Origin: Aggregicoccus sp. 17bor-14
GTDB lineage: Bacteria > Myxococcota > Myxococcia > Myxococcales > Myxococcaceae
NCBI RefSeq assembly: GCF_009659535.1
Contig: NZ_VJZZ01000010.1
Coordinates: forward strand, 62,001-126,000
DNA: 64,000 nt
Direction: 5' to 3'
Shown: positions 5,518 through 20,729 of the stretch, piece after piece
Numbering within the stretch: the stretch's first letter is position 1
Layout: each line of letters starts with the position of its first letter
Translations under genes and position numbers: made by a program
The notes under the pieces: generated by a model
Database searches by the model: none
Told to the model about the DNA's origin: nothing
Seen by the model: the letters and a program-made list of their open reading frames with translations, nothing else

Positions 5518-6330
5518 CTAGCGCTGGCCGGCGGGAGCCGGGGTGGCCGAGCCGCTGCCGCCGCTGCCCGCGCCGCCGGTGAGGCTCTCGCCGCTGCCGC
5601 GCGCGAGCCGCGCCTTCATCTTCTTGATGAGCCCGTCCACGCCGTCCTTGCGGATGATGCGGTTGAACTGGCTGCGGTAGTTCTCGAGGATGCTCACGCC
5701 GTCCGTGACCACGTCGTAGGCGCGGAAGCCCTGGCCCTGCGGGTGCAGCAGGTAGTCGATGCGCACCTCGAAGGGGCGGCCGCGGCGCTGCGCGAGGATG
5801 CGCGTGTGCACGAGCTGGTCGGCGCCGCGCGCCTCCTCACCCTCGTACTTGATCTCGTAGTTGAGGTTGCTGCGCAGCTGGGAGAGGTAGTTCTGCTCCA
5901 CCACGTCGCGCAGCGTCTCGGTGAGCGTCTTGCGCTGCGCCGGGGTCATGGTGCCCCAGTGCGAGGCGAGCGCCCGCTTCGCCAGGTCCTCGATGTCGAA
6001 GAGCGAGCGCAGCTCCTCGGTGATGGCGCGCGAGGTCTTCGCGTCCGGCGCCTGGCCGGCGGGCACCGCCTGCAGCAGCTTGCGCAGCCGCACGTTCGCA
6101 TCGCGCAGGGCGCGCGTGGCGCCGGTCTCGGGGCCCGGGGCGCTGGGGGCCGCGGCCGCCGCAGGGGCGCTCGGCGCGGGGGCGGCCGCGGGAGCCGGCG
6201 TCTGGGCGGCTGCCGAGCGGCCGAGCAGCATCAGGCCGAGTGCGAGCAGGCTGGCGCGCAGGACGCGGGGCCGGGCGGCAGAGGGAGTGCGGCGGGTGGC
6301 AGAGAGAGAGGGGGAGTGGCTCATGGTCAT
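5518..6330 (-). CDS. MlaC/HpnM-family periplasmic lipid-carrier protein
   Basis: A protein of about 270 residues with a Sec signal (hydrophobic LRASLLALGLMLLG, cleavage near AAAQ) and a long Ala/Pro linker. A toluene-tolerance/MlaC domain follows, seen in RSLFDIEDLAKRALASHWG, LRDVVEQNYLSQL, VDYLLHPQG-like strands and AYDVVTDGVSILENYRSQF. Family members are soluble periplasmic proteins that ferry phospholipids or hopanoid-type lipids between membranes; HpnM of hopanoid loci belongs here. It is the last gene of the minus-strand operon with TolC, RND and PAP2 proteins, starting about 22 bp after the PAP2 stop. ATGs at 6330 and 6324 are equally plausible, and neither has a strong ribosome site. 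No MlaABDEF partners are nearby, so it probably serves the RND pump. Confidence 0.85.
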   Translation of the reverse strand: MTMSHSPSLSATRRTPSAARPRVLRASLLALGLMLLGRSAAAQTPAPAAAPAPSAPAAAAAPSAPGPETGATRALRDANVRLRKLLQAVPAGQAPDAKTSRAITEELRSLFDIEDLAKRALASHWGTMTPAQRKTLTETLRDVVEQNYLSQLRSNLNYEIKYEGEEARGADQLVHTRILAQRRGRPFEVRIDYLLHPQGQGFRAYDVVTDGVSILENYRSQFNRIIRKDGVDGLIKKMKARLARGSGESLTGGAGSGGSGSATPAPAGQR

Positions 6331-6352
6331 CTGTACCGATGGAGGCGGCGGT

Positions 6353-7168
6353 CTATTCAACCGACTGGGCCGAGGCGGAGTCGGCTGCGAGCGGGCGCAG
6401 CCGCGCGAGCGCGGGGTTCTGCAGGCGCTGGTACTGCCACAGCAGGACGAAGGCGAGCGCCATCACCAGGCCGCCCGCGGCCGCGTCCAGGACGAAGTGG
6501 TTCCCGGTCACCACGATGACCAGGAGGATGAGCGGGGCGTACAGCGCGCTCACCGCCTTCACCCACAGCGGGCGCGCCCAGCGCACGATGCCGGTGCTCA
6601 CCAGCAGCGAGTAGCCGAAGTGCATGGAGGGCACGGCTGCGTACTGGTTGAAGAAGTGGCGCCGCCAGCCGCGGTACAGGTCCACGCCGCTCGAGTGGCG
6701 CAGCGTGTCCACGATCCCCAGCGCCTCCATGAGCCGCGGCGGGGCCACCGGGTACACCACGTAGATGATGACCGCGATGGCATTGGCCACGAAGAAGCCG
6801 TTGCGCACCCAGGCGTAGTCGCTGCGGTGGTAGCGGTACAGCCACATGAAGAAGAGGATCGTCACCGGCAGGTGCGCGCGCATGTACACCGCGTTGAGCA
6901 CCTGCTTGAGCGCCTCGTGCGGCAGGAACAGCGCCTGCATCCCGGGCTCCACGTACAGCCCCAGGGCGCGCTCGAAGCGGACGATGTCCATCGCGTGGCC
7001 CATCGCCACCTCCTCCCCCCCGATCGCGATGGCCCGGCTCAGCTGGTACACGCCCAGCGCGAGGAGGAAGTACAGCCACTCCATCGCCCACGGGCGGCGC
7101 TGGGCGAGCCGCGCGAGCGCCGAGGTGGGCGGCTGCGCAGGGACGGAGGGGAGGCTGGTGGGGCTCAT
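6353..7168 (-). CDS. PAP2_3-family phosphatase/phosphotransferase, inositol-phosphoceramide-synthase-like
   Basis: A 271-residue polytopic membrane protein with about six helices. The catalytic signatures are VPSMHFGYSLL and GNHFVLDAAAGG, matching the PS(L/M)HxG and HHYxxDxxxG pattern of fungal AUR1 and related PAP2_3 enzymes rather than the KxxxxxxRP/PSGH/SRxxxxxHxxxD set of ordinary PAP2 phosphatases. The first His would act as base and the second His as phospho-nucleophile. YPVAPPRLM before the first motif is also typical of the subgroup. Known relatives dephosphorylate lipid phosphates or transfer phosphoinositol to ceramide. Its ATG overlaps the RND stop as ATGA, so it is coupled to the exporter. 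A role in making or trimming the exported lipid is inferred. Confidence 0.82.
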   Translation of the reverse strand: MSPTSLPSVPAQPPTSALARLAQRRPWAMEWLYFLLALGVYQLSRAIAIGGEEVAMGHAMDIVRFERALGLYVEPGMQALFLPHEALKQVLNAVYMRAHLPVTILFFMWLYRYHRSDYAWVRNGFFVANAIAVIIYVVYPVAPPRLMEALGIVDTLRHSSGVDLYRGWRRHFFNQYAAVPSMHFGYSLLVSTGIVRWARPLWVKAVSALYAPLILLVIVVTGNHFVLDAAAGGLVMALAFVLLWQYQRLQNPALARLRPLAADSASAQSVE

Positions 7169-9747
7169 CGCCGGCTCGCAGTCAGTCGCGTCAGGAGGGC
7201 AGGCACGGCACCGAGCGCCGCGGCAAGGCAGGTGAACTCCCCGAGGATCGCGGCGCCGCCGAACGAGCGCAGCCCCTGGTTCTCGGAGATGAGCAGCGAA
7301 CCGTAGCCGACGATGGTGGTGTAGGAGCAAAGGAACACAGCGCCGCCCACTGTAGACAAAAGCTGGCGCGGGCTCTCGCCCGTCTGCTGGTGGCGCGCGG
7401 CGAGGTTCGCCGCGTAGTCGATGCCGATGCCGATGGTGATGGGCAGGGCCACGAAGTCCAGGAAGTTGACCTTGATCCCCATCACCGCGCACAGCCACAG
7501 CATCATCGTGGTGCCCAGCAGGCTCGCCAGCAGCGTGATGGTGGCGTGGCGCGAGAAGCCCAGCATCAGCAGCACCACCAGCGTGGCGCCCACCATCGAG
7601 GCCACCGTGGCGCGCGGGCCGTCCGTGTTCATGGAGTCCAGCAGGTCCGCGAACACGAAGGTGCTGCCGCCCACCTGGGCGCCCTGCACGTCGATCTTGC
7701 GGAAGTCGTTCACGAAGGAGCGCAGGTCCTCGGCGAGCCAGGTGTTGTAGTGCAGCCCCACGCCCGCGAGCACGATGCGCCCGCGCGTGCCGTCGCGCTC
7801 CGTGTAGGGCCAGGCCAGCTCCACCGGCACGTCCTGGGTGGTGAGCGCGCGCAGGCCCTCGGGGGGCAGCAGCAGGCGGCGGTCCTCGTCCGAGAGCTCG
7901 GAGGCGGCCGCGCCCTGCAGCATCTGGCTGCGGATGTCCTGGAGCAGCGCGAGCTTCTGCGGCTGGTCCGTGGGCAGCTGGTCCTCCAGCGTGGAGATGC
8001 GGCTGAAGAGCTTCTCCTGGTCCTGCTTGCCCGCGTCGTGCGCGCGCAGCCGCGCCGCCACCTGGGTGGCCGCCTCCTGCGTGGGCAGCGCGATCACCAT
8101 GCCGCCCGAGATGCCGCGGCCGAAGCCCCGGTCCACCTTGTCCAGCCAGTCGCGGATGGCCAGGATCTCCGCGCTCGAGGAGCGCACGTTGCGGAAGTCG
8201 CGCTCGAGCGGGTCGTGCGCGAGGTAGAGCACCGCGCCCAGCACGCTCACCAGCAGCAGCGCGAGGCTCACCAGCGCCACGGGCGCCGTGCGGCTCGGGT
8301 AGAGCTTCGCCAGCGCCTGGCCGCTCTTCGGCTCGCCGCGCGGGTGCATCCCGCGCCGCCGCGCCACCGCCAGCAGCGCGGGCAGCACCGTGTAGGTGGC
8401 CACCCAGCACGCCACCATGCCCATGCCGCCGATGATCCCGAAGTGCCGGAAGCCGCGGAACTGGGTCACGATGAGCGAGCCGTAGGCCACCGCCGCCGTG
8501 AGCCCCGCGGTCGCCGTGCCCTTGAGCGTGCCGCCCAGCGCGTGGGCGAGCGCGTCCAGGTCCGGGCGCCCCGCGCGCAGCTCCTCGAAGTAGCGCGCGA
8601 GCAGCACGATCCCGAAGTTGATGCCGTTGCCCACCACGATGGCCGAGAGGAAGGCCGTGGCCAGGTTCAGGTGGCCGATGGTCAGCTTGGTCAGCGCGAA
8701 GGTGAGCAGCGTGCCCACCGTCAGCGTCCACAGCAGCGCCCCCACCCCGCGCACCGAGCGGTAGTAGGCGAACAGCCCCAGCCCCACCAGCACGATGGTG
8801 AGCACCGTGGCCAGCAGCATGCCGCTGAGGATGGACTTCTGCTCCGCCTGGCCGTTGGCCACGTCTCCGGCAAGCCCCACCGTCACCGTGGGGCCTGCGG
8901 CCGCCTTCGCCACCGGCCCGTCCTGCACCTGCGGGGCGCTGCAGCCCGGCCCCACCTCGGCGCAGGCCTCCTGCACCGCCTTGCGCACCGCGCTCATCAG
9001 CTCGCGCGACAGCCGCACCTCGCTCGAGGCGAAGGGCGTGCGCACGATGAGCAGCTGCATCTTGCCGTCCTTGGACACCAGCCCCGCGGACTCGTGCGCC
9101 TTCTTCTCGGCGTCACGCATGCGCGTGCGCAGCTCCTCGATGCGCGTGTCCGGCGCGTCTCCAGAGGCCTTGTCGTCAGAGCCCTTGTCGTCAGAGCCCT
9201 TGTCCGCGCCCTGCTTCTTCGCGTCCTTCTTGGGAGCCGGCGCCTCGTCCTCGTCCTCGAAGGAAACGTAGAGCGGGTTGCTCTTGAGCTTCGCCTCGGT
9301 GATGCGCGAGCTGAGCGCGTCGTGCGCGGACTGCAGGTCCGCGAGCGGGGCGAAGAGGAAGCGGTTCTGCCAGCGGAACTCGCGCGCCTTCGCGTCGTCC
9401 GCGGCCACGCTCGCCACCAGCTTCGGATCGATGGTGCGCAGCCGCCGTGCCACCTGCTCGGCGGTGCGCGTGCGCAGGGCCGCGTCGTCGCTCTCCACCG
9501 CGATGAGCAGGGTGCCCAGCGAGCTCACCCGCTGCTGCAGCGCGCGCAGGTCGCGCACCGACTTCGCGTCCGGCGGCAGCAGCCAGGAGAAGTCGCCGTA
9601 CACCGGCAGGCGCGAGGAGAGCCAGCCGCACAGCAGCACCAGCACCACGGACACCGCGAGCACCCGCACGCGGTTCGTGTCCAGCCAGGTCGCCCAGCGG
9701 AGGCTGCGCTCGGAGGGGGCGGAGCCCGGTTCACTTGGGGAGTGCAT
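7165..9747 (-). CDS. RND/MMPL-family lipid exporter, HpnN-like
   Basis: An 860-residue inner membrane protein with the twofold MMPL layout. Helix 1 (about residues 28-47) precedes a large periplasmic loop with a charged low-complexity insert (KGSDDKGSDDKASGD, encoded by a 15-bp tandem repeat). A five-helix bundle follows, with FLSAIVVGNGINFGIVLLAR. After a second helix-plus-loop comes a second bundle with DFVALPITIGIGIDYAANLA. The GN(G)INFGI and GIGIDYA segments hold the acidic and polar residues of the proton relay, though the first half has Asn where Asp is common. Size and two-loop structure match HpnN-type hopanoid exporters and MmpL proteins. It overlaps the tolC gene by 17 bp and the PAP2 gene by 4 bp. 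No periplasmic adaptor gene is present. Confidence 0.88.
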   Translation of the reverse strand: MHSPSEPGSAPSERSLRWATWLDTNRVRVLAVSVVLVLLCGWLSSRLPVYGDFSWLLPPDAKSVRDLRALQQRVSSLGTLLIAVESDDAALRTRTAEQVARRLRTIDPKLVASVAADDAKAREFRWQNRFLFAPLADLQSAHDALSSRITEAKLKSNPLYVSFEDEDEAPAPKKDAKKQGADKGSDDKGSDDKASGDAPDTRIEELRTRMRDAEKKAHESAGLVSKDGKMQLLIVRTPFASSEVRLSRELMSAVRKAVQEACAEVGPGCSAPQVQDGPVAKAAAGPTVTVGLAGDVANGQAEQKSILSGMLLATVLTIVLVGLGLFAYYRSVRGVGALLWTLTVGTLLTFALTKLTIGHLNLATAFLSAIVVGNGINFGIVLLARYFEELRAGRPDLDALAHALGGTLKGTATAGLTAAVAYGSLIVTQFRGFRHFGIIGGMGMVACWVATYTVLPALLAVARRRGMHPRGEPKSGQALAKLYPSRTAPVALVSLALLLVSVLGAVLYLAHDPLERDFRNVRSSSAEILAIRDWLDKVDRGFGRGISGGMVIALPTQEAATQVAARLRAHDAGKQDQEKLFSRISTLEDQLPTDQPQKLALLQDIRSQMLQGAAASELSDEDRRLLLPPEGLRALTTQDVPVELAWPYTERDGTRGRIVLAGVGLHYNTWLAEDLRSFVNDFRKIDVQGAQVGGSTFVFADLLDSMNTDGPRATVASMVGATLVVLLMLGFSRHATITLLASLLGTTMMLWLCAVMGIKVNFLDFVALPITIGIGIDYAANLAARHQQTGESPRQLLSTVGGAVFLCSYTTIVGYGSLLISENQGLRSFGGAAILGEFTCLAAALGAVPALLTRLTASRR

Positions 9748-11194
9748 AGGCCTCGGTATAGGGGGCGCCCATGGCGCGCATCAGGGTGAAGACGGCGATG
9801 TCCCAGTCGAACGTCGCCTGGGCGAGCCGCGCGCGCTGGCCGAACCAGGCCGTGAGCGAGTCGCCGATGTCCTTGGTGTCCACGAGGCCCGCGGCCTCCG
9901 CCTGCAGGCTGGAGACGAGCCAGGCGCGCGCCTCGGCCTCGCCGGCGATCGCCGCCTCGCGGCGCCCCAGCGCATCCTGCGCGTCCGCCCAGGCCGCGCG
10001 CGCGGCGAGCTGCGCGGCGGAGGCGGCGAGCCCCGCGCCGGTGCGCGCGCGCGCGGCGTCCGCCTCGGCGCCCCGCAGCCGCGCGAGCCGCGTGGCCGGG
10101 TCAATGGTCCAGCGCAGCGCGAGCCCCGCGCCCACGCTCGTGGTGTTGAAGGGGTCGGCGAAGTAGGCGTTGTGCGGGTTCTCGGCGCCGGCGGCGCGCG
10201 CGAAGGCGCCCTGCGCCACCACCGCCAGGTCTGGCAAGAGGCGCGCGCGCTCCACGTCCGAGAGCCCCTCGGCCGCCTTGGCCGCGTACTGCGCGGCGCG
10301 CACGTCCGGCCGCCCCGAGCTCTCGCTCTCCGCGTGCGCGAGCTGCGGCAGCCGCCCGGGCAGCGCCTCCAGCGGCTTCTCGTCCACGTCCACCTTGTCG
10401 TCGCCCGCGAGGAAGCGCACGCCCGCGAGCGCCACCGCCTCCAGCTTGCGCGCCTCGGCGAGCCGCCCGGCGGCCTCCGTCTGCAGCACGCGCAGGCGGC
10501 GGCGGTCGCCCTCGCCCAGCTCGGTGTCCGGCTGCGCGAGCTCCTCCTCGGTGCGCTTCACCGCCTGGCGCAGGATGTCCTGGCCCTCCTCGAGCATGGA
10601 CACCAGCTCGCGCCCCAGCTTCACGCCGTAGTAGGCGCGCGCCGCGTCCACCGAGGCGTCTGCCGTGCCCGCCTCCACCAGCGCCTGCGTCGCCGCCACG
10701 CCGGCCTTCGCCGCGCGCAGGCCGCCCTCGCGCTTGCCGAAGGTGTAGATGGGCCAGACGGCGCGCAGGTCGATGCGCACCAGGGCGCCCTGGAAGTGCA
10801 CGCCCGGCTCGCGCGGGTCGGTGGTGATGCAGTCGTCCACGGACGGGATGCAGTTGATGCGCGGGCTGGGCGCCCCCAGCACCGTGAGCTCGCCCTGGGG
10901 CAGGGTCACGCGCGCGACCTCGTCCTGCTTCGCCTGCATCGACTGCACCTGCGAGCGCACCATCTCCACGCGGGCGCCGCGCTGGGCGCGCTCGATCAGC
11001 GCGGGCAGGTCCAGCGCCTGCGCCGGGCGCGCGTGCGCCGCGGTGGGCGGGGCGGGGGCCGCCGGAGCCGCGGCGGCAGGCGCCGGTGTGGGAGCCGGTG
11101 CGGAGGTGGGCGCGGACGCCGCGGGGGGAGCCGGGGCCTGGGCCAGCACGGGCCCCGCTACCCACAAGCTCAGAATCGTGAAGCACGCGCGCAT
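9731..11194 (-). CDS. TolC-family outer membrane efflux protein
   Basis: A 487-residue outer membrane channel subunit. The start at 11194 gives a signal peptide ([20 protein letters not shown]) and an Ala/Pro-rich linker to about residue 60. After this come long amphipathic alpha-helical segments with coiled-coil character ([58 protein letters not shown]) typical of the periplasmic barrel of TolC. The frame is open 27 codons upstream but lacks a signal there. It is the first gene of the operon with the RND exporter, the PAP2 enzyme and the MlaC-like carrier, so it probably forms the outer membrane exit for that system. A perfect 9-bp inverted repeat lies 58-102 bp upstream of the start. Confidence 0.87.
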
Positions 11195-11922: not shown

Positions 11923-12746
11923 GGCTCGCGCCCCGCGAGCAGCGCGTCGAGCCGCTCGCGGTAGCTGCGGCTGAGCTTGAGGTGGCTGCCGTCCTGCAGC
12001 ACCACCCAGTACTCGCCGTGGAACAGCGGCTGCAGCTCGCGCACGCGCGCCACGTTCACCAGCGTGGAGCGGTGGATGCGCAGGAAGCGGCGCGGGTCCA
12101 GCTGCCCCTCCAGCGCGCGCAGGCTCTGGCGCAGGAGGTAGCTCCTGCCCCCGGCGTGCACCTGCACGTAGTAGTCGTCCGCCTCCACCCAGTCCACCTC
12201 CTCCACCGGCAGCAGCGTCACCCGGCCCGTCTCCTTGAGCGCGAGCCGCTGCAAGTAGCCCTGGGTGGCGGGCGCACCAAGACCCTCCGGGCCGCCGGGC
12301 GCGGCGCTGCCGCCGTACAGGGCCCCGAGCTGCCGCGCCAGCTGCTGCACCCGCAGCGCCCGCACGCGCTCCTTGGCGCGCGCCACGCCTCGCGCGAGCT
12401 GCTCGGCGTCCAGCGGCTTGAGCAGGTAGTGCAGGGCGCCCACGTCGAAGGCGTGCAGCGCGTGGGCGTCCGAGCCGGTGACGAAGAGCACGGCCGCGGC
12501 CGCGCCGGGCCCCGCCTCGCGCAGCAGCTCGAAGCCGTCCAGGTCCGGCAGCCCCACGTCCAGCAGCAGCAGGTCCACCGGCGCCTGCTGCAGCGCCCGC
12601 AGCGCCTCGCGCCCCGAAGCGCACTCGCCCACCAGCTCCAGCTCCGGGTCGCGCTCGAGCAGCTCGCGCAGCGCCGCGCGCGCCGCCGGCTCGTCGTCCA
12701 CGAGCAGGGTGTGCAGGGGCGGGGGAAGGCGGCTTTCCGCGAACAT
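11889..12746 (-). CDS. LytTR-family response regulator
   Basis: A 285-residue two-domain transcription factor. The receiver domain (about residues 12-125) has the acidic pair DD17-18, phospho-acceptor Asp63 in [13 protein letters not shown], Thr90 in FVTGSD and Lys110 in YLLKPLD. A linker rich in Gly/Ala/Pro leads to a LytTR DNA-binding domain (about 170-275) with [14 protein letters not shown] and [17 protein letters not shown]. It should bind paired direct repeats as a dimer when phosphorylated. No LytS-type histidine kinase is adjacent, so it is an orphan. It is divergent from the SARP-AAA regulator across 237 bp, and that region holds three 21-bp tandem repeats that either protein might bind. 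The 3' end overlaps the carbonic anhydrase gene. Confidence 0.93.
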
Positions 12747-12845
12747 GGTCCTCCAGCGGCGCGAAGCGCCATCCTAGCGGGCGGGCGCTCTGCCCACCGG
12801 CCGCCCCCCGCGCGGCTGCCCGGTCCCGGACGATCTCCCGGCGCG

Positions 12846-12910
12846 GGCCCCCGGGCCGCCTGGCAGGCCCCCGGGGCCCGCTCGCAGGCTCCCCGGGCCG
12901 GCTCGCTGCA
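12846..12910. repeat. Three tandem 20-24 bp GC-rich repeats in divergent regulator promoter
   Basis: Units start at 12846, 12866 and 12887, each beginning GGC(C/T)CCC(C)GGG and ending GCA. The pitch of about 21 bp is two helical turns, placing copies on one DNA face. They lie 74-138 bp upstream of the SARP-AAA start and 100-164 bp upstream of the LytTR gene. SARP and LytTR proteins both bind spaced direct repeats, so this is a candidate operator. Confidence 0.45.
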
Positions 12911-12983
12911 AATTGCGGCAGGTTCCCCGCACGGCACTCGTTTCTTCAGCAAGGAGCCACGCACGGCCGGGGGCGAGGAGACC

Positions 12984-15038
12984 ATGGCCTCAGCAGGTGG
13001 TCAGCGAGCCGAGAACAGGGGCAGCGGCCCGGCAGTGCCGGGCTGGCGCCTGAAGCTGCTGGGCAGCGTGGAGCTGTGCGGCCCGCGCGGGCGCATCCCG
13101 CTGGAGGGCCGCATCGCGGCGGCGCTCGCGTACGTGGCCTGGTCCGCCCCCACGCCCAAGGCCCAGCTCGCCGGGCTGCTGTGGCCGGACACCGTGCCCT
13201 CCCAGGAGCGCAACAACCTGCGCCAGCTGCTGCGCCGGCTGCGGCTCGCGTGCGGAGAGCCCCTGCTGCAGAGCGTGGGGCAGCAGGACGCGCTGGTGCT
13301 GGACGAGGCGGTGGAGTGCGACCTGCTGCGGCTGCGCGAGGCGGCCCGGCGCGGGCACTCCGAGGAGGTGCTGGGGCTGCAGGGCTCGCTGCTCGCCGGG
13401 CTGGACTTCGACGAGCTGCCCGAGTTCACCCGCTGGCTGGACGGGGCGCGGCTCGCGGCCGAGGGCTGGTTCCGCAAGCTCATCGGGCTGGAGCTGCGGC
13501 GGCGCGAGGACGTGGGCGACCTGCTGGGCGCCATCGGCGTGGCGGAGACCTGGCTCAGCCTCGAGCCGGAGTCCGAGCCCATCGCCCGCACGCTGATGCG
13601 CCTTCACCACGTGGCCGGCAGCCGCCACGCCGCGCTGCACGTGTACGAGCAGCTCAAGGCCCGGCTCGCCGAGGAGCTCGCGGTCGCGCCCACCGAGGAG
13701 ACGGCGGGGCTCGCGCGCCGCATCGCGCGCAGCCTGCAGCAGGACCGCAGCGCCGCCGCCATCGCCTCGGCCACGCCCCTGCAGCTGCGCCGCCCCTGGT
13801 TGCGCGTGGGGCGCGAGGACGCGTGGCAGCAGCTGCAGGACGGCTGGGCGCGAGGCCGCGTGCTCTGCCTCGCCGGCGCGCCCGGAGTGGGCAAGAGCCG
13901 GCTCGCACTGGACTTCGCCGCAGCGCAGGGCGAGTTCCTCCTGGTGACCGGCCACCCGGCGGACGCCCCGGTCGCCTATGCCACGCTCACCCGCGCGCTG
14001 CGCCAGCTGCTGCGCGTCGCGCCCGCCGGCGCGCTGCCCACCTGGGTGCGCGCGGAGCTCTCGCAGCTGCTGCCCGAGCTGTCCCCGCCGCGGCGCGCAC
14101 GCCGGCGCAGCGAGCACGCGCTGCAGGTCCGGCTGCACGGGGCGCTCGGCCACGCGCTCAGCCTGCTCGCGCCGCACGCCACCTCCTTCGTCGCCGACGA
14201 TCTGCACGACTGGGACGCGCACAGCCTGGCCTTCCTCGGCGCGTGGATCGCCTCGCTGCAGACCGCTTCGCCGCAGTCGCCGGAAGGCCCCGCGCGGGAG
14301 GGCTCCGCACTGCGGCTGCTCTGCTGCACCGAGTGGCAGGGGGGGGCCTCGAGCCGCTGGCCCGCGGCGGAGCCGGACGTGGCGCACCTGCTGGCCCACG
14401 CGCAGCGCGTGGAGCTCGCGCCGCTGTCGCGCGTGCAGGTGCTCGCACTCGTGGACTCGCTCTCCCTGCCTCACGCCGCGCGGGAGCTGGGCGAGGCGGT
14501 GTGGCGCTTCGCCGGCGGCAACCCCTTCCTCGTCCTCGAGGCGCTGCGCGACTGGGTGCGCCGCGCTGCGGGCAGCGCGGATCCCGCGGGCGTCGCGGTG
14601 GGCTCGGAGAGCGTGGCGGCCACCGCCCGCAGCCGGGTGGCGCGCCTGCACCCGCACGCGCTGCCGGCGGCCCTGGCCGCGGCCGTGGCCGCCGAGCACC
14701 TCTCCGAGCACCTGGCCGAGCACGGCGAAGGCGAGGACGGGCGCATCACGGCGGCGCTCGTGGCCGAGCTGCTGCAGCTGCCCGAGCTGGAGATGGCCGC
14801 GGCGCTCGAGGCGCTGCAGCGCATGGGCGTGGTGGGCGCGGCGCCCCCGCAGCCCTTCGGCGTGTGCGGTGCGCTGCGGGTCGCGCTCGCCAGCGCCCCT
14901 GCCACCGCGCAGCTGCTGCGTGCGCGCTGCGCCCCGGCGCTCGCCCGCCGGCGCGGCCTGGCCGCCGCGAGCGCGGCGGGGCGGGGCGCCCGCACCACCT
15001 GGGACGATGCGCCCGACCTGCAGGTGCTGCTTCCCTGA
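12984..15038 (+). CDS. SARP/BTAD transcriptional regulator with AAA ATPase domain
   Basis: A 684-residue regulator. Residues about 20-110 form a winged-helix OmpR-like DNA-binding unit (LKLLGSVELCGPRGRIPLEG). About 110-260 is the bacterial transcriptional activator TPR-like domain, ending HVYEQLKARLAEELAVAPTEE. A STAND/AAA_16 NTPase module begins near residue 290 with Walker A GAPGVGKSR and continues with SFVADDLHDWD (Walker B). The C-terminal end is short; the long TPR array usual after this ATPase is absent. The start ATG at 12984 has GGAG 7 nt upstream; the frame is open far upstream without coding character. It is divergent from the LytTR regulator. Related AfsR-type proteins control secondary metabolism or development; no biosynthetic cluster is adjacent. 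Confidence 0.9.
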   Translation: MASAGGQRAENRGSGPAVPGWRLKLLGSVELCGPRGRIPLEGRIAAALAYVAWSAPTPKAQLAGLLWPDTVPSQERNNLRQLLRRLRLACGEPLLQSVGQQDALVLDEAVECDLLRLREAARRGHSEEVLGLQGSLLAGLDFDELPEFTRWLDGARLAAEGWFRKLIGLELRRREDVGDLLGAIGVAETWLSLEPESEPIARTLMRLHHVAGSRHAALHVYEQLKARLAEELAVAPTEETAGLARRIARSLQQDRSAAAIASATPLQLRRPWLRVGREDAWQQLQDGWARGRVLCLAGAPGVGKSRLALDFAAAQGEFLLVTGHPADAPVAYATLTRALRQLLRVAPAGALPTWVRAELSQLLPELSPPRRARRRSEHALQVRLHGALGHALSLLAPHATSFVADDLHDWDAHSLAFLGAWIASLQTASPQSPEGPAREGSALRLLCCTEWQGGASSRWPAAEPDVAHLLAHAQRVELAPLSRVQVLALVDSLSLPHAARELGEAVWRFAGGNPFLVLEALRDWVRRAAGSADPAGVAVGSESVAATARSRVARLHPHALPAALAAAVAAEHLSEHLAEHGEGEDGRITAALVAELLQLPELEMAAALEALQRMGVVGAAPPQPFGVCGALRVALASAPATAQLLRARCAPALARRRGLAAASAAGRGARTTWDDAPDLQVLLP

Positions 15039-15225: not shown

Positions 15226-18200
15226 CTAGAAGGTCACCTTCGCGCCGAAGCGGACGGAGCGAGGCGCCTGGTAGGCCGTGGCGTTGCGGAAGTTCGGGTT
15301 CTTGTCCGCATCCGTGAAGCCCTGGTCCTGGAAGCACTGGTTCACGGCCTCGTCACCCTGCGGGTTGCCCGTGCACGGCGTCACTGCTTGCGTGGTGTAG
15401 GCCTGGTCGACCGTGGTCACGGTCTGGAAGTTGAACAGGTTGAACACGTCCACGCCGACGGTGATGAGGTTGTTCTCGCTCAGCTTGTAGTTCAGGCCGA
15501 GGCGACCATCGATGTCGTTGCGCCACGGGGTACGGCCCGCGGTGCCGCGCTCGGCGAGGAAGGCCTCCTGCTGGCCGTAGATGGGGTGCGCGCCCAGGTA
15601 GCTGATGGGCGTGCCCGAGCGGCCACGGTAGGTGGCGCCGAGGTTGAAGCTGACGGCATCCGTGAGGACGAACTCCTTCGCCGCGAACACCTTGATGCTG
15701 TGCGTACGGTCACCGGGCAGCTTGCCGGTGCGGTTCGCCAGCAGCGAGATGAGGTCGAAGTCGGAGTTGATGTTCGGGTCCAGCTGGCCGGTCTCCGGGC
15801 GGAAGAGGCCCGCGTAGTTACCCTCGAGCTTGCTCCAGGTGTAGCTGACCTGGGCGAGCCACAGGTCGGCGAAGGTCTTGTCGAAGAAGACCGTCACCGC
15901 GTCGTAGTCGCGCGTCGCCTTGGGGAAGTCCGAGGCCACGCCCGTGCCCGGGTTGCCGATGAAGTAGGTGTTCGCCTCGTCGCGGCTCATGTCCTCGATG
16001 ACCTGGTTCATGTAGCGGCGGGTGTAGCTCGCACCCAGGCGGCCGTTGTTGATGACCTCGTACTCGCCGCCGACCACGAACTCGTCCGAGCTCTGGGGCT
16101 TCAGGTCGGGGTCCACAGGGCTGCGGACACCGCCGGTGGGCTGCAGGAACTCGTTGGGATCGCTCGGGTCACTGCCGGACACCAGTCCCGCGGGGTCCAC
16201 CGAGAGGCAGCCCGCGGTGGCAGCCGAGATGTCCACCACGCCGTTCGCGGCGGTCATGTTGCAGTTGGAGCGCGCGTGCACGATGTTGGCCTGACGCTCA
16301 CCGGGGAACTGACGGTCGGCCAGGTCGAGGGGAACCTGCTCGTAGAAGCGCGCGTAGTTCGCGTAGATCTTGGAGCGGCCCTGCTGGGTGAAGTCGTACA
16401 GGACGCCGACGCGCGGGCTCCACTGGTTGCCCAGGCTGAGCGCGAGGATGTCATCGGCGCCGTACATCTTCTGCTGGTCGTAGCGAACGCCGGCGTTGAT
16501 GGTGAAGAGGTCGAGCACGCTCCAGCTGTCCTGCACGAAGCCACCGATGGTGTTGCTGCTGGTGGCCGCCGGCACGGAGGCCTGACGGGTGAACTGACCC
16601 GGGGCGGTGAGGTAGCCGTAGTTGCGGAACTCCTGGAAGCCGGTGGAGGGCGCCGTCGCGGTGCGGTCCAGGGTCTCGCGCAGCCAGGCGCCGCCCGAGT
16701 ACGCCTTGTTGCGGTCGTAGTTCAGGTACTCGTAGTCCACGCCGACCTTGAACACGTGACGGCCGGCCAGGTTCGCCAGGTAGGTGCCCACGCCCTTCGC
16801 CTGGTAGCGGTCGAGCTTGTCCTCGGTGATGAAGCCGGGGCCGCCCACCGAGTAGGTGGTGACCGGGCAGAGGTTGGCGCCGCCGGGACCCGTGCACGCC
16901 GCGACCACGGCGGGGTCGCTCGCGTACTCGAAGTCGGTGGCGCGGTAGGCGCCGGCGCCGGAGCGCGCGCGGAACTGCACGAGCGGGGTCGCCGCGATGC
17001 CCGAGGTGTCCGCCACGTGGGTGCCGTCCACCGGCAGGATGTTCGCATCCTGGTGGTGCCAGCCGGCCGTCACGTCCAGGAGGAACTTCTTGTCCGCGAA
17101 CGACGAGGCCGTCTTCAGCGCGAGGTCCATGGAGTTGGCGGTGTTGATGGTGGACAGGGCGTTGAACTGCCCGTTCACGAACACCGTCGGAGTGCCGTCC
17201 TGGTTGTCGAAGGGGAAGCTGGTGCTGCTGCCCGACTTGGAGGGCGAGCCGTACACGGACAGGCTGACGTTGTGATTCTGGTTGAGCAGGTAGGTCAGCT
17301 TGCCGATGTACTGGAAGCTCTTCTGGTCCGCGAAGCGGTTGCTCTCGGTGCCCGGGACGACCTCGGAGGCGAAGAGGCTGCGTGCCGTCAGGGCGCCCGA
17401 GGAGCCCGGGATGCGGAGCAGCCCGCCGAAGCAGTTGTTCGTGCCGTCCGGGTCCGAGCAGGGGACGCGCGCGTTCACGTTGCGCTCGTTGCTGTAGCGG
17501 GTGAACGAGGGGGCGAAGCCCGCGTAGAACCACAGCTTGTCCTTGAGGATGGGACCGCCGAGCTCGGCGCCGAAGTCACCGAGGTTGTGCAGGCTCGTGT
17601 TGACGGAGAAGGCGCTCGCCTGGGAGAGGACCGTCTTCGCGTTGCCCTCGAGCGCGCCCGGGGTGAAGTTCGCGAACACGGAGCCGTGGAACTCGTTGGA
17701 TCCGCTCTTCGTCACGGCGTTGAGCACGCCGCCGGTGGCCCGCCCGTACTCGGGCATGTAGCCACCAGTGATGACGTTCACGTCCTGGATGAACTCCACG
17801 CTCAGGGGCGTGCCGAGCACGCCGAAGCCGGGGTCGTTCACGGAGAGGCCGTCGATGACGAACGAGTTCTCGGGGGACGTGGTGCCGCTGATGCTCACGC
17901 CGTACTGGTCGGCATTCGCGCCGGGGGCGATGTCCGCGAGAGACTCGAAGGAGCGCGCAGCGCCGCCCTTGCCGGTGGGACGCACCACGGCGATGTTGCG
18001 CACGAAGTCCGCGCCCACGTTGACGCCGGTGGAGGTGGAGCCCACGTCGATGGTGGGCGCCGTGCCCTGCACGACGATGTTCTCGGTGATGCCGGTGGGC
18101 AGCAGCTCCACGTTCACGCGGATGGTGCGGTCCACGCGCAGCTGGACGCCCGCGCGGCTGTAGGGCTGGAACTGCTCCTTCTCGAAGCGCAGCGTGTAAT

Positions 18201-18435
18201 TGCCGGTGGGCAGCTGCGGGATGCGGTACTGGCCGGTGGCGTCCGTCACCACCACCTGCTCACCTTGGAGGTTGGGCGAGGTCGCGGTCACCACGACATC
18301 GGGGACGGGTTGTTTGTTGGAAGCGTCGCTCACCGTACCGGTGATGACGCCGCTCTGAGCAAAGGCGGCGGTGCCATACAAGAGGCCCGCGACCAGGAAC
18401 GCTCCGGTTGCCCGGAGTACACGAGGCCATTGCAT
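15226..18435 (-). CDS. TonB-dependent outer membrane receptor with carboxypeptidase-regulatory-like domain (Oar-like)
   Basis: A 1069-residue outer membrane protein. Signal peptide residues 1-26 end at TAAFA. About 30-110 is a CarboxypepD-regulatory-like beta-sandwich (GVITGTVSDASNKQPVPDVV; TGQYRIPQLPTGNYTLRF). A plug domain with SFVIDGLSVNDPGFG and GGYMPEYGRATGGVLNAVTK follows, then a long beta-barrel ending in aromatic AKVTF, the outer-membrane sorting end. This architecture and length match Oar, the Myxococcus protein needed for development, and other TonB receptors for macromolecular ligands. The start at 18435 has AAGGAG 8 nt upstream. The leader forms a remarkable pseudoknot-like structure touching that site. 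A palindromic terminator follows the stop. No TonB/ExbBD genes are near; the ligand is unknown. Confidence 0.92.
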   Translation of the reverse strand: MQWPRVLRATGAFLVAGLLYGTAAFAQSGVITGTVSDASNKQPVPDVVVTATSPNLQGEQVVVTDATGQYRIPQLPTGNYTLRFEKEQFQPYSRAGVQLRVDRTIRVNVELLPTGITENIVVQGTAPTIDVGSTSTGVNVGADFVRNIAVVRPTGKGGAARSFESLADIAPGANADQYGVSISGTTSPENSFVIDGLSVNDPGFGVLGTPLSVEFIQDVNVITGGYMPEYGRATGGVLNAVTKSGSNEFHGSVFANFTPGALEGNAKTVLSQASAFSVNTSLHNLGDFGAELGGPILKDKLWFYAGFAPSFTRYSNERNVNARVPCSDPDGTNNCFGGLLRIPGSSGALTARSLFASEVVPGTESNRFADQKSFQYIGKLTYLLNQNHNVSLSVYGSPSKSGSSTSFPFDNQDGTPTVFVNGQFNALSTINTANSMDLALKTASSFADKKFLLDVTAGWHHQDANILPVDGTHVADTSGIAATPLVQFRARSGAGAYRATDFEYASDPAVVAACTGPGGANLCPVTTYSVGGPGFITEDKLDRYQAKGVGTYLANLAGRHVFKVGVDYEYLNYDRNKAYSGGAWLRETLDRTATAPSTGFQEFRNYGYLTAPGQFTRQASVPAATSSNTIGGFVQDSWSVLDLFTINAGVRYDQQKMYGADDILALSLGNQWSPRVGVLYDFTQQGRSKIYANYARFYEQVPLDLADRQFPGERQANIVHARSNCNMTAANGVVDISAATAGCLSVDPAGLVSGSDPSDPNEFLQPTGGVRSPVDPDLKPQSSDEFVVGGEYEVINNGRLGASYTRRYMNQVIEDMSRDEANTYFIGNPGTGVASDFPKATRDYDAVTVFFDKTFADLWLAQVSYTWSKLEGNYAGLFRPETGQLDPNINSDFDLISLLANRTGKLPGDRTHSIKVFAAKEFVLTDAVSFNLGATYRGRSGTPISYLGAHPIYGQQEAFLAERGTAGRTPWRNDIDGRLGLNYKLSENNLITVGVDVFNLFNFQTVTTVDQAYTTQAVTPCTGNPQGDEAVNQCFQDQGFTDADKNPNFRNATAYQAPRSVRFGAKVTF

Positions 18436-19721: not shown

Positions 19722-20729
19722 ATGGCGCAGCTCGCCTTCGCCCGCTCCACCGAGAAAGAGCCGCACCTCGCGCGCGCTCGCGCCATCCTGGTGGCCCACC
19801 CCGAGCTGAAGGCGCTGTGCGGTCACACGCCCATCACCGCGCTCTTCGTCGCGGCGCTGGTGGGAATCATGGTGGGCATGGCGGCGCTGCTGCGCGCGCA
19901 GCCCTGGTGGGTCATCCTCGCCGCCTCCTGGCTGGTGGGCGCGGTGGTGAACCACGGCCTGTGGGTGCTCATCCACGAGTGCACCCACAACCTGGTCTTC
20001 AAGAGCCCGCGGATGAACGCGCTGCTGCAGATGTTCGCGAACCTGCCGATCCTCTTCCCGGCGGCCATCTCGTTCCGCAAGTACCACCTGCTGCACCACC
20101 GCTTCCAGGGTGACCCCGAGCTGGACGCGGACCTGGCGAGCCCGCTCGAGGCGAAGCTCATCGGCAACTCCACCTTCGGCAAGGCCTTCTGGATGCTCTT
20201 CTTCTGGGCGTTCCAGGCCAGCCGCGTGGGCCGGCTCAAGCGCATCCCCTTCTTCGACCGCTGGTACGTGGCGAACCTCCTCATCCAGGTCGCCTTCATC
20301 GGCGGCGTGGTGTTCTGGCTGGGCTGGGGCGCGCTCGCGTTCCTCTTCCTCTCCAGCATCTTCTCCATCGGGCTGCACCCGGTGGGCGCGCGCTGGATCC
20401 AGGAGCACTACCTGGTCAAGCCGGACCAGGAGACCTACTCGTACTACGGCCCGTTCAACGTGGTGGCCTTCAACGTGGGCTACCACAACGAGCACCACGA
20501 CGTGATGCGCGTGCCGTGGACGCGCCTGCCGCAGGTGCGCAGCATCGCGCCCGAGTTCTACGAGTCGCTGCACTCGCACTCGAGCTGGACGAAGCTGTGG
20601 CTGCAGTTCCTCTTCGACCCGAAGCTCTCGCTCTACAGCCGCATGACGCGCGGCGGGAACACCGCAGCGAAGCTGGACGCGCCCCCCGAGCACACCGAGG
20701 GGCTGCTCGCCACCGGCGCGGGGAAGTAG
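19722..20729 (+). CDS. Membrane fatty-acid/sphingolipid desaturase, dihydroceramide delta-4 desaturase (DEGS)-like
   Basis: A 335-residue integral membrane di-iron desaturase. The three histidine boxes are HECTH (85-89), HLLHH (122-126) and HNEHH (255-259). The stretch ETYSYYGPFNVVAFNVGYHN before the last box, GLHPVGARWIQEHY upstream of it, and the N-terminal AHPELKAL correspond closely to human and plant DEGS/DES1 dihydroceramide desaturases, which are nearly the same length (about 323). These enzymes insert the delta-4 double bond in the sphingoid base. Bacterial acyl-lipid desaturases of the DesA type normally lack the ETYSYYGP block. The start has GAGGT 9 nt upstream. It follows mtnP by 154 bp in the same direction. 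The substrate is inferred only; a ceramide or a fatty acyl chain are both possible. Confidence 0.85.
   Translation: MAQLAFARSTEKEPHLARARAILVAHPELKALCGHTPITALFVAALVGIMVGMAALLRAQPWWVILAASWLVGAVVNHGLWVLIHECTHNLVFKSPRMNALLQMFANLPILFPAAISFRKYHLLHHRFQGDPELDADLASPLEAKLIGNSTFGKAFWMLFFWAFQASRVGRLKRIPFFDRWYVANLLIQVAFIGGVVFWLGWGALAFLFLSSIFSIGLHPVGARWIQEHYLVKPDQETYSYYGPFNVVAFNVGYHNEHHDVMRVPWTRLPQVRSIAPEFYESLHSHSSWTKLWLQFLFDPKLSLYSRMTRGGNTAAKLDAPPEHTEGLLATGAGK

Follow-up and report, generated by a model that had tools for sequence, protein, structure and literature searches.

The closest described systems are pumps of the MMPL/HAE3 type that work with a periplasmic protein of their own. In Rhodopseudomonas and Burkholderia the pump HpnN is paired with the MlaC-family protein HpnM, and hopanoid localisation to the outer membrane requires HpnN (Doughty et al., 2011, as cited in PMC6394551). 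Sterol transport in Methylococcus uses BstABC, an HpnN-like inner-membrane RND protein with a periplasmic lipid-binding protein, whose genes lie beside lipid synthesis genes; BstB belongs to the Phosphonate-bd superfamily and BstC to a third superfamily (PMC10942540). AmeABCD of Castellaniella is an HAE3 RND pump with its own outer-membrane protein and two periplasmic proteins and no classical MFP, whose loss lowers monoterpene tolerance (PMC6394551). Other precedents concern sphingolipids: the Bacteroides genes BT_1522-1526 tie a PAP2_3-type enzyme to ceramide and inositol lipids, with no exporter named, and ceramide phosphoinositol has been reported in M. xanthus (PMC9246714). For Caulobacter, Lpt-like proteins (LptC2/F2/G2) and a possible flippase, encoded beside ceramide genes, have been proposed to transport sphingolipids (PMC11324152). 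How sphingolipids pass from the inner to the outer membrane in bacteria is unknown, according to two 2024 papers (PMC11324152, PMC11087976).

We analysed a 64,000-nucleotide stretch of the Aggregicoccus sp. 17bor-14 genome, here called the window. Open reading frames and Pfam confirm an operon of four coupled minus-strand genes, with its overlaps and gap just as an earlier, sequence-only reading had given them:

9731..11194, minus strand: TolC-family outer membrane channel (OEP), 487 aa; Pfam OEP 3e-18
9731..9747, minus strand: 17-bp overlap of the TolC and MMPL genes; from the sequence
7165..9747, minus strand: HpnN-like (HAE3) MMPL/RND transporter, 860 aa; Pfam MMPL 9e-35
7165..7168, minus strand: 4-bp ATGA overlap of the MMPL and PAP2_3 genes, common to relatives; from the sequence
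6353..7168, minus strand: PAP2_3 lipid phosphatase/phosphotransferase, 271 aa; Pfam PAP2_3 4e-40
6620..6631, minus strand: PAP2 catalytic motif PSMH, residues 180-183; from the sequence
6485..6499, minus strand: PAP2 catalytic motif HFVLD (H224...D228); from the sequence
5518..6330, minus strand: MlaC/HpnM-family periplasmic lipid-binding protein, 270 aa; Pfam MlaC 5e-35

All four proteins score above the Pfam gathering cut-offs, and none reaches an NCBIfam equivalog cut-off. The PAP2_3 and MlaC genes are separated by 22 bp, and the ATGA overlap is likely to couple translation of MMPL and PAP2_3. Long open frames had raised the suspicion of an MMPL-PAP2_3 fusion, which was rejected: these are separate genes that overlap by 4 bp. 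The TolC and MlaC proteins each begin with a signal-peptide-like stretch followed by an Ala/Pro-rich linker. A promoter and terminator scan was uninformative. Neither the operon nor the flanking genes gave a Pfam match to an MFP domain, in agreement with the earlier view that a dedicated TolC takes the place of an MFP adaptor. The flanking genes (EamA permease, QueG-like, cobalamin adenosyltransferase, hexapeptide transferase, BTAD/AAA protein) are unrelated to the operon.

The pump resembles HpnN in fold and size. It belongs to the HAE3/MMPL RND superfamily, scoring above the PF03176 cut-off and having the RND fold over its full length. The best PDB match of its structure model (pLDDT 89.4) is HpnN (5khn, Z 44.3 over 697 residues), with MmpL4/MmpL5 and AcrB-type pumps within about 2 Z, and the modelled fold supports family membership rather than any cargo. 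HpnN is also its nearest NCBIfam family, at scores far under the cut-offs (TIGR03480, 241 against 752 bits; NF052374, 155 against 1100 bits), and it falls below the BstA cut-off too (185 against 1400 bits). The MlaC protein is a member of its Pfam family (PF05494, 121 bits against a cut-off of 26), and its nearest NCBIfam family is HpnM (72 bits against 160). Unlike the HpnN/HpnM pair, the operon also has a TolC of its own and a PAP2_3 enzyme; unlike BstABC, it has MlaC and TolC as partners. Hopanoid function was set aside because the genome assembly (6.9 Mb, 38 contigs, 99.95% complete) gave no squalene-hopene cyclase match at E 0.001, in line with the earlier statement that hopanoid genes are missing; 14 control genomes also gave no match over the cut-off, so that this search had no strong positive control.

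The PAP2_3 protein keeps the His-His-Asp residues of the PAP2 superfamily (PSxH, HxxxD). Its sole NCBIfam match is phosphoinositol-dihydroceramide synthase (NF052609), the family of the Bacteroides enzyme, at 33.7 bits against a cut-off of 480. Its structure was modelled from an alignment of MMPL-linked PAP2_3 relatives (pLDDT 67); the IPC synthase-ceramide complex (9vj4, Z 14.9), Aur1-Kei1 (14.1) and SMSr (13.7) rank above LpxE (11.8) and PgpB, by narrow margins. Generic PAP2 proteins from Streptomyces and Thermomicrobium are the closest that turned up by sequence (34-36% across 70-80% of the length); they share with it an NHF/NHY motif where IPC-linked proteins have HHY. The enzyme is not orthologous to the SPT- or IPC-linked PAP2_3 proteins; 195 Myxococcota genomes yielded only weak paralogs, and no ortholog was found in genome contigs (close relatives only) or viral contigs. 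The description of this enzyme as AUR1-like is weak: the fold model narrowly favours IPC synthases, but the nearest sequences do not. Its chemistry could be that of either a transferase or a phosphatase.

The likeness to generic PAP2 proteins, together with MlaC family membership, would also suit a retrograde, Mla-like recycling system that brings mislocalised lipids back to the inner membrane and in which PAP2_3 acts as their phosphatase. We consider this improbable, since no MlaA, MlaD, MlaE, MlaF or MlaB partner domain was recognised in the operon or the scanned flanking genes, and the reported role of HpnN in placing hopanoids in the outer membrane points the other way.

Other lipid genes of this genome lie elsewhere. 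SPT and a GNAT ceramide synthase form an operon on contig C1, facing a PAP2_3 gene; no MMPL, TolC or MlaC was found in the 30 kb read around it, and the P0002 search found no MMPL beside this SPT, while finding SPT-linked MMPLs elsewhere in the same family (e.g. G022:C1:4517277). That PAP2_3 gene (L131:12918-13862) is divergent from SPT and sits at the position that MMPL has in other genera of the family. An inositol-lipid cluster resembling that of Bacteroides (INO1, PAP2_3, PIP-synthase-like) is on contig C6; the identity of its genes was checked at a homologous locus (L091). The genome has three HAE3-type MMPL genes (window, C6 and C2); searched with the window MlaC, it gives that copy as the only match. 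The complete synthesise-and-export route claimed for the operon is not supported in that form: it contains no ceramide or inositol synthesis genes, which are on C1 and C6. The operon probably stands in for the MMPL, TolC and MlaC missing at the C1 ceramide locus. Ceramide phosphoinositol clusters like that of Bacteroides (INO1, PAP2_3, PIP synthase) were seen both in this genome (L089) and in three further loci (L091-L093); in the latter three, two divergent HpnN-like MMPLs lie near the cluster, and L091 also has a DSP phosphatase.

We examined ceramide-gene loci in relatives, reading 20 SPT loci, three picked for visible MMPL adjacency (L134-L136) and the other 17 by genus. In six genomes of the window's family, three of them chosen with the adjacency already known, the SPT and GNAT ceramide synthase genes have MlaC on one side and an MMPL-PAP2_3 pair on the other; the order is TolC-MlaC, GNAT-SPT (in places preceded by SDR), MMPL-PAP2_3 in five, and the sixth (L149) lacks only TolC. 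Among the 17 genus-chosen loci, PAP2_3 was found in nine, MlaC in five, TolC in four and MMPL in three, and 14 of all 20 SPT loci have no MMPL; the linkage of SPT to the pump is recurrent, not universal. The GNAT (ceramide synthase) and SDR (ceramide-reductase-like) assignments follow from operon position and fold family only. A second arrangement, AT3-MocA-MMPL-SPT-GNAT-SDR, occurs in four loci of family f5 (L076, L101, L102, L110), with MlaC and a CDP-alcohol transferase on the opposite strand and TolC there in three; solved serine palmitoyltransferases are matched by the L102 SPT at 4e-107. In the phylogeny, MMPLs linked to SPT fall into two separate clades, so the SPT linkage has recurred. 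The 4-bp overlap of MMPL and PAP2_3 is shared by the window, five of the six SPT-linked loci (all but L134) and three loci of family f7 (L083, L084 and L103, with L191 counted together with L083 and L220 with L103), which argues that the arrangement is not due to chance. That all four gene types recur around the SPT and ceramide synthase genes of relatives thus supports two suggestions of the sequence-only reading, a dedicated lipid export system and a possible link to sphingolipids.

In seven loci (the four of f5 with L082, L119 and L097), class III aminotransferase, inositol-dehydrogenase-like MocA, CDP-alcohol transferase and GtrA genes, with or without a HAD phosphatase, lie beside MMPL; four of the seven also have SPT/CerS. 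This set may make an amino-inositol-type head-group. A gene of about 446 aa beside MMPL had been taken for inositol phosphate synthase, wrongly; it encodes the class III aminotransferase.

A scan of 84,980 species genomes for MMPLs similar to the window clade gave 80 loci, with PAP2_3 in 18, AT3 in 16, INO1 in eight and MocA in seven; many of the PAP2_3 genes stand directly after MMPL. As a rough chance level, about 3 PAP2_3 genes per 7 Mb would put one in about 1% of 20-kb stretches. Contigs of Bdellovibrionota type have MMPL followed by PAP2_3 and inositol-lipid genes, and one locus (L117) reads PAP2_3-GT4-MMPL-TolC-MlaC on one strand. The closest MMPLs (44-46%) include three without any tested lipid gene nearby (L156, L157, L159); among the closest full-length ones, those of L154 and L155 do have head-group genes and PAP2_3 nearby. 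In the phylogeny the window MMPL is sister to that of L068 (a contig fragment carrying TolC-MlaC-MMPL), with those of L105 and L106 next, and lies outside the SPT-linked clades; the window TolC likewise groups with the L068 TolC, which adjoins MMPL/MlaC. Because the window and SPT-linked MMPLs fall in different clades, the tie between HAE3 pumps and lipid genes is one that reappears from clade to clade and does not denote a single orthologous operon. The sequence-only reading had named operons with only two of the four genes as evidence against it, and the outcome is mixed: MMPL-PAP2_3 and TolC-MlaC pairs do occur separately, which makes the system modular, and full sets also recur. In L105 and L106, MMPL is preceded by LPG_synthase_TM and FemAB/GNAT genes.

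Glycosyltransferase-4-like genes adjoin MMPL in L117, L154 and L155, and MmpL4/MmpL5 are among the best structural matches of the window pump. Pumps of the MmpL type export lipids and siderophores in mycobacteria, and the operon might by analogy send a secreted specialised (glyco)lipid or lipid-linked metabolite, not a membrane sphingolipid, out through its TolC, a channel that opens to the outside. We regard this as unlikely: the operon gave no Pfam match to a PKS, NRPS or glycosyltransferase, the MlaC family is known to act in phospholipid trafficking and to occur in hopanoid loci, and the SPT linkage in relatives favours ceramide lipids. About equally unlikely, perhaps by a hair less so, is efflux of toxic hydrophobic compounds or drugs by MMPL, TolC and the periplasmic binding protein, on the model of monoterpene efflux by AmeABCD. 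The general architecture is the same, and TolC-type channels usually release their cargo outside the cell; however, AmeA (DUF1302) and AmeB (LolA-like, DUF1329) are not TolC and MlaC, the Castellaniella system has no lipid enzyme, and genes for degradation or resistance were not seen next to the window operon. Its embedded PAP2_3 and the recurring SPT/INO1 neighbourhood suit a lipid cargo better.

Our preferred reading, to which we give a probability of roughly one half, is that HAE3 pump, PAP2_3, MlaC and TolC form a lipid export machine for a sphingolipid or inositol-type cargo. The gene identities, their coupling and the recurring linkage are established, and from these we infer a direction, a cargo and a series of transport steps. 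By analogy with its family, the HpnN-type pump would draw a polar lipid from the periplasmic leaflet of the inner membrane, driven by the proton gradient. PAP2_3 may finish or trim the phospho-head-group and hand its product to the pump; the MlaC-family protein would ferry the lipid through the periplasm, and the TolC-type protein would be the exit or docking point at the outer membrane, with no membrane-fusion adaptor. Export of some polar lipid is probable. The cargo would most likely be a sphingolipid or a phospholipid of the inositol type, given that ceramide genes in relatives are surrounded by the same kinds of gene; that it is specifically a sphingolipid is a tentative proposal with somewhat less than even chances. 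Slightly more tentative again is a dedicated sphingolipid exporter of Myxococcota and Bdellovibrionota, built from HAE3 RND pump, MlaC-type carrier, adaptor-free TolC and coupled head-group enzyme.

The operon can be described as a variant of the lipid exporters of HpnN type, and it offers a testable candidate for a sphingolipid route to the outer membrane. If so, this route from the inner membrane would differ from the Lpt-like one proposed for Caulobacter, with RND, MlaC and TolC in place of Lpt-like proteins; transport is a proposal in both cases. In the literature searched, which covers few subscription journals, we found no prior description of an RND-MlaC-TolC-PAP2_3 set with sphingolipid genes, nor of MMPL or MlaC tied to myxobacterial sphingolipids. 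The linkage names specific candidate genes, beside ceramide genes in several genera of the window's own family.

Three further genes of the window may be mentioned. Divergent from the operon, at 11982-15038 (plus strand), is the gene of a possible regulator, a protein of 1018 aa that carries a BTAD transcriptional activator domain and matches AAA weakly. At 15226-18435 (minus strand) is a TonB-dependent-receptor-like outer membrane barrel with a CarboxypepD_reg domain at its N-terminus. At 19722-20729 (plus strand), 8.5 kb from the operon, is a fatty acid desaturase whose N-terminal Lipid_DES domain (sphingolipid delta-4 desaturase) scores above the Pfam cut-off.
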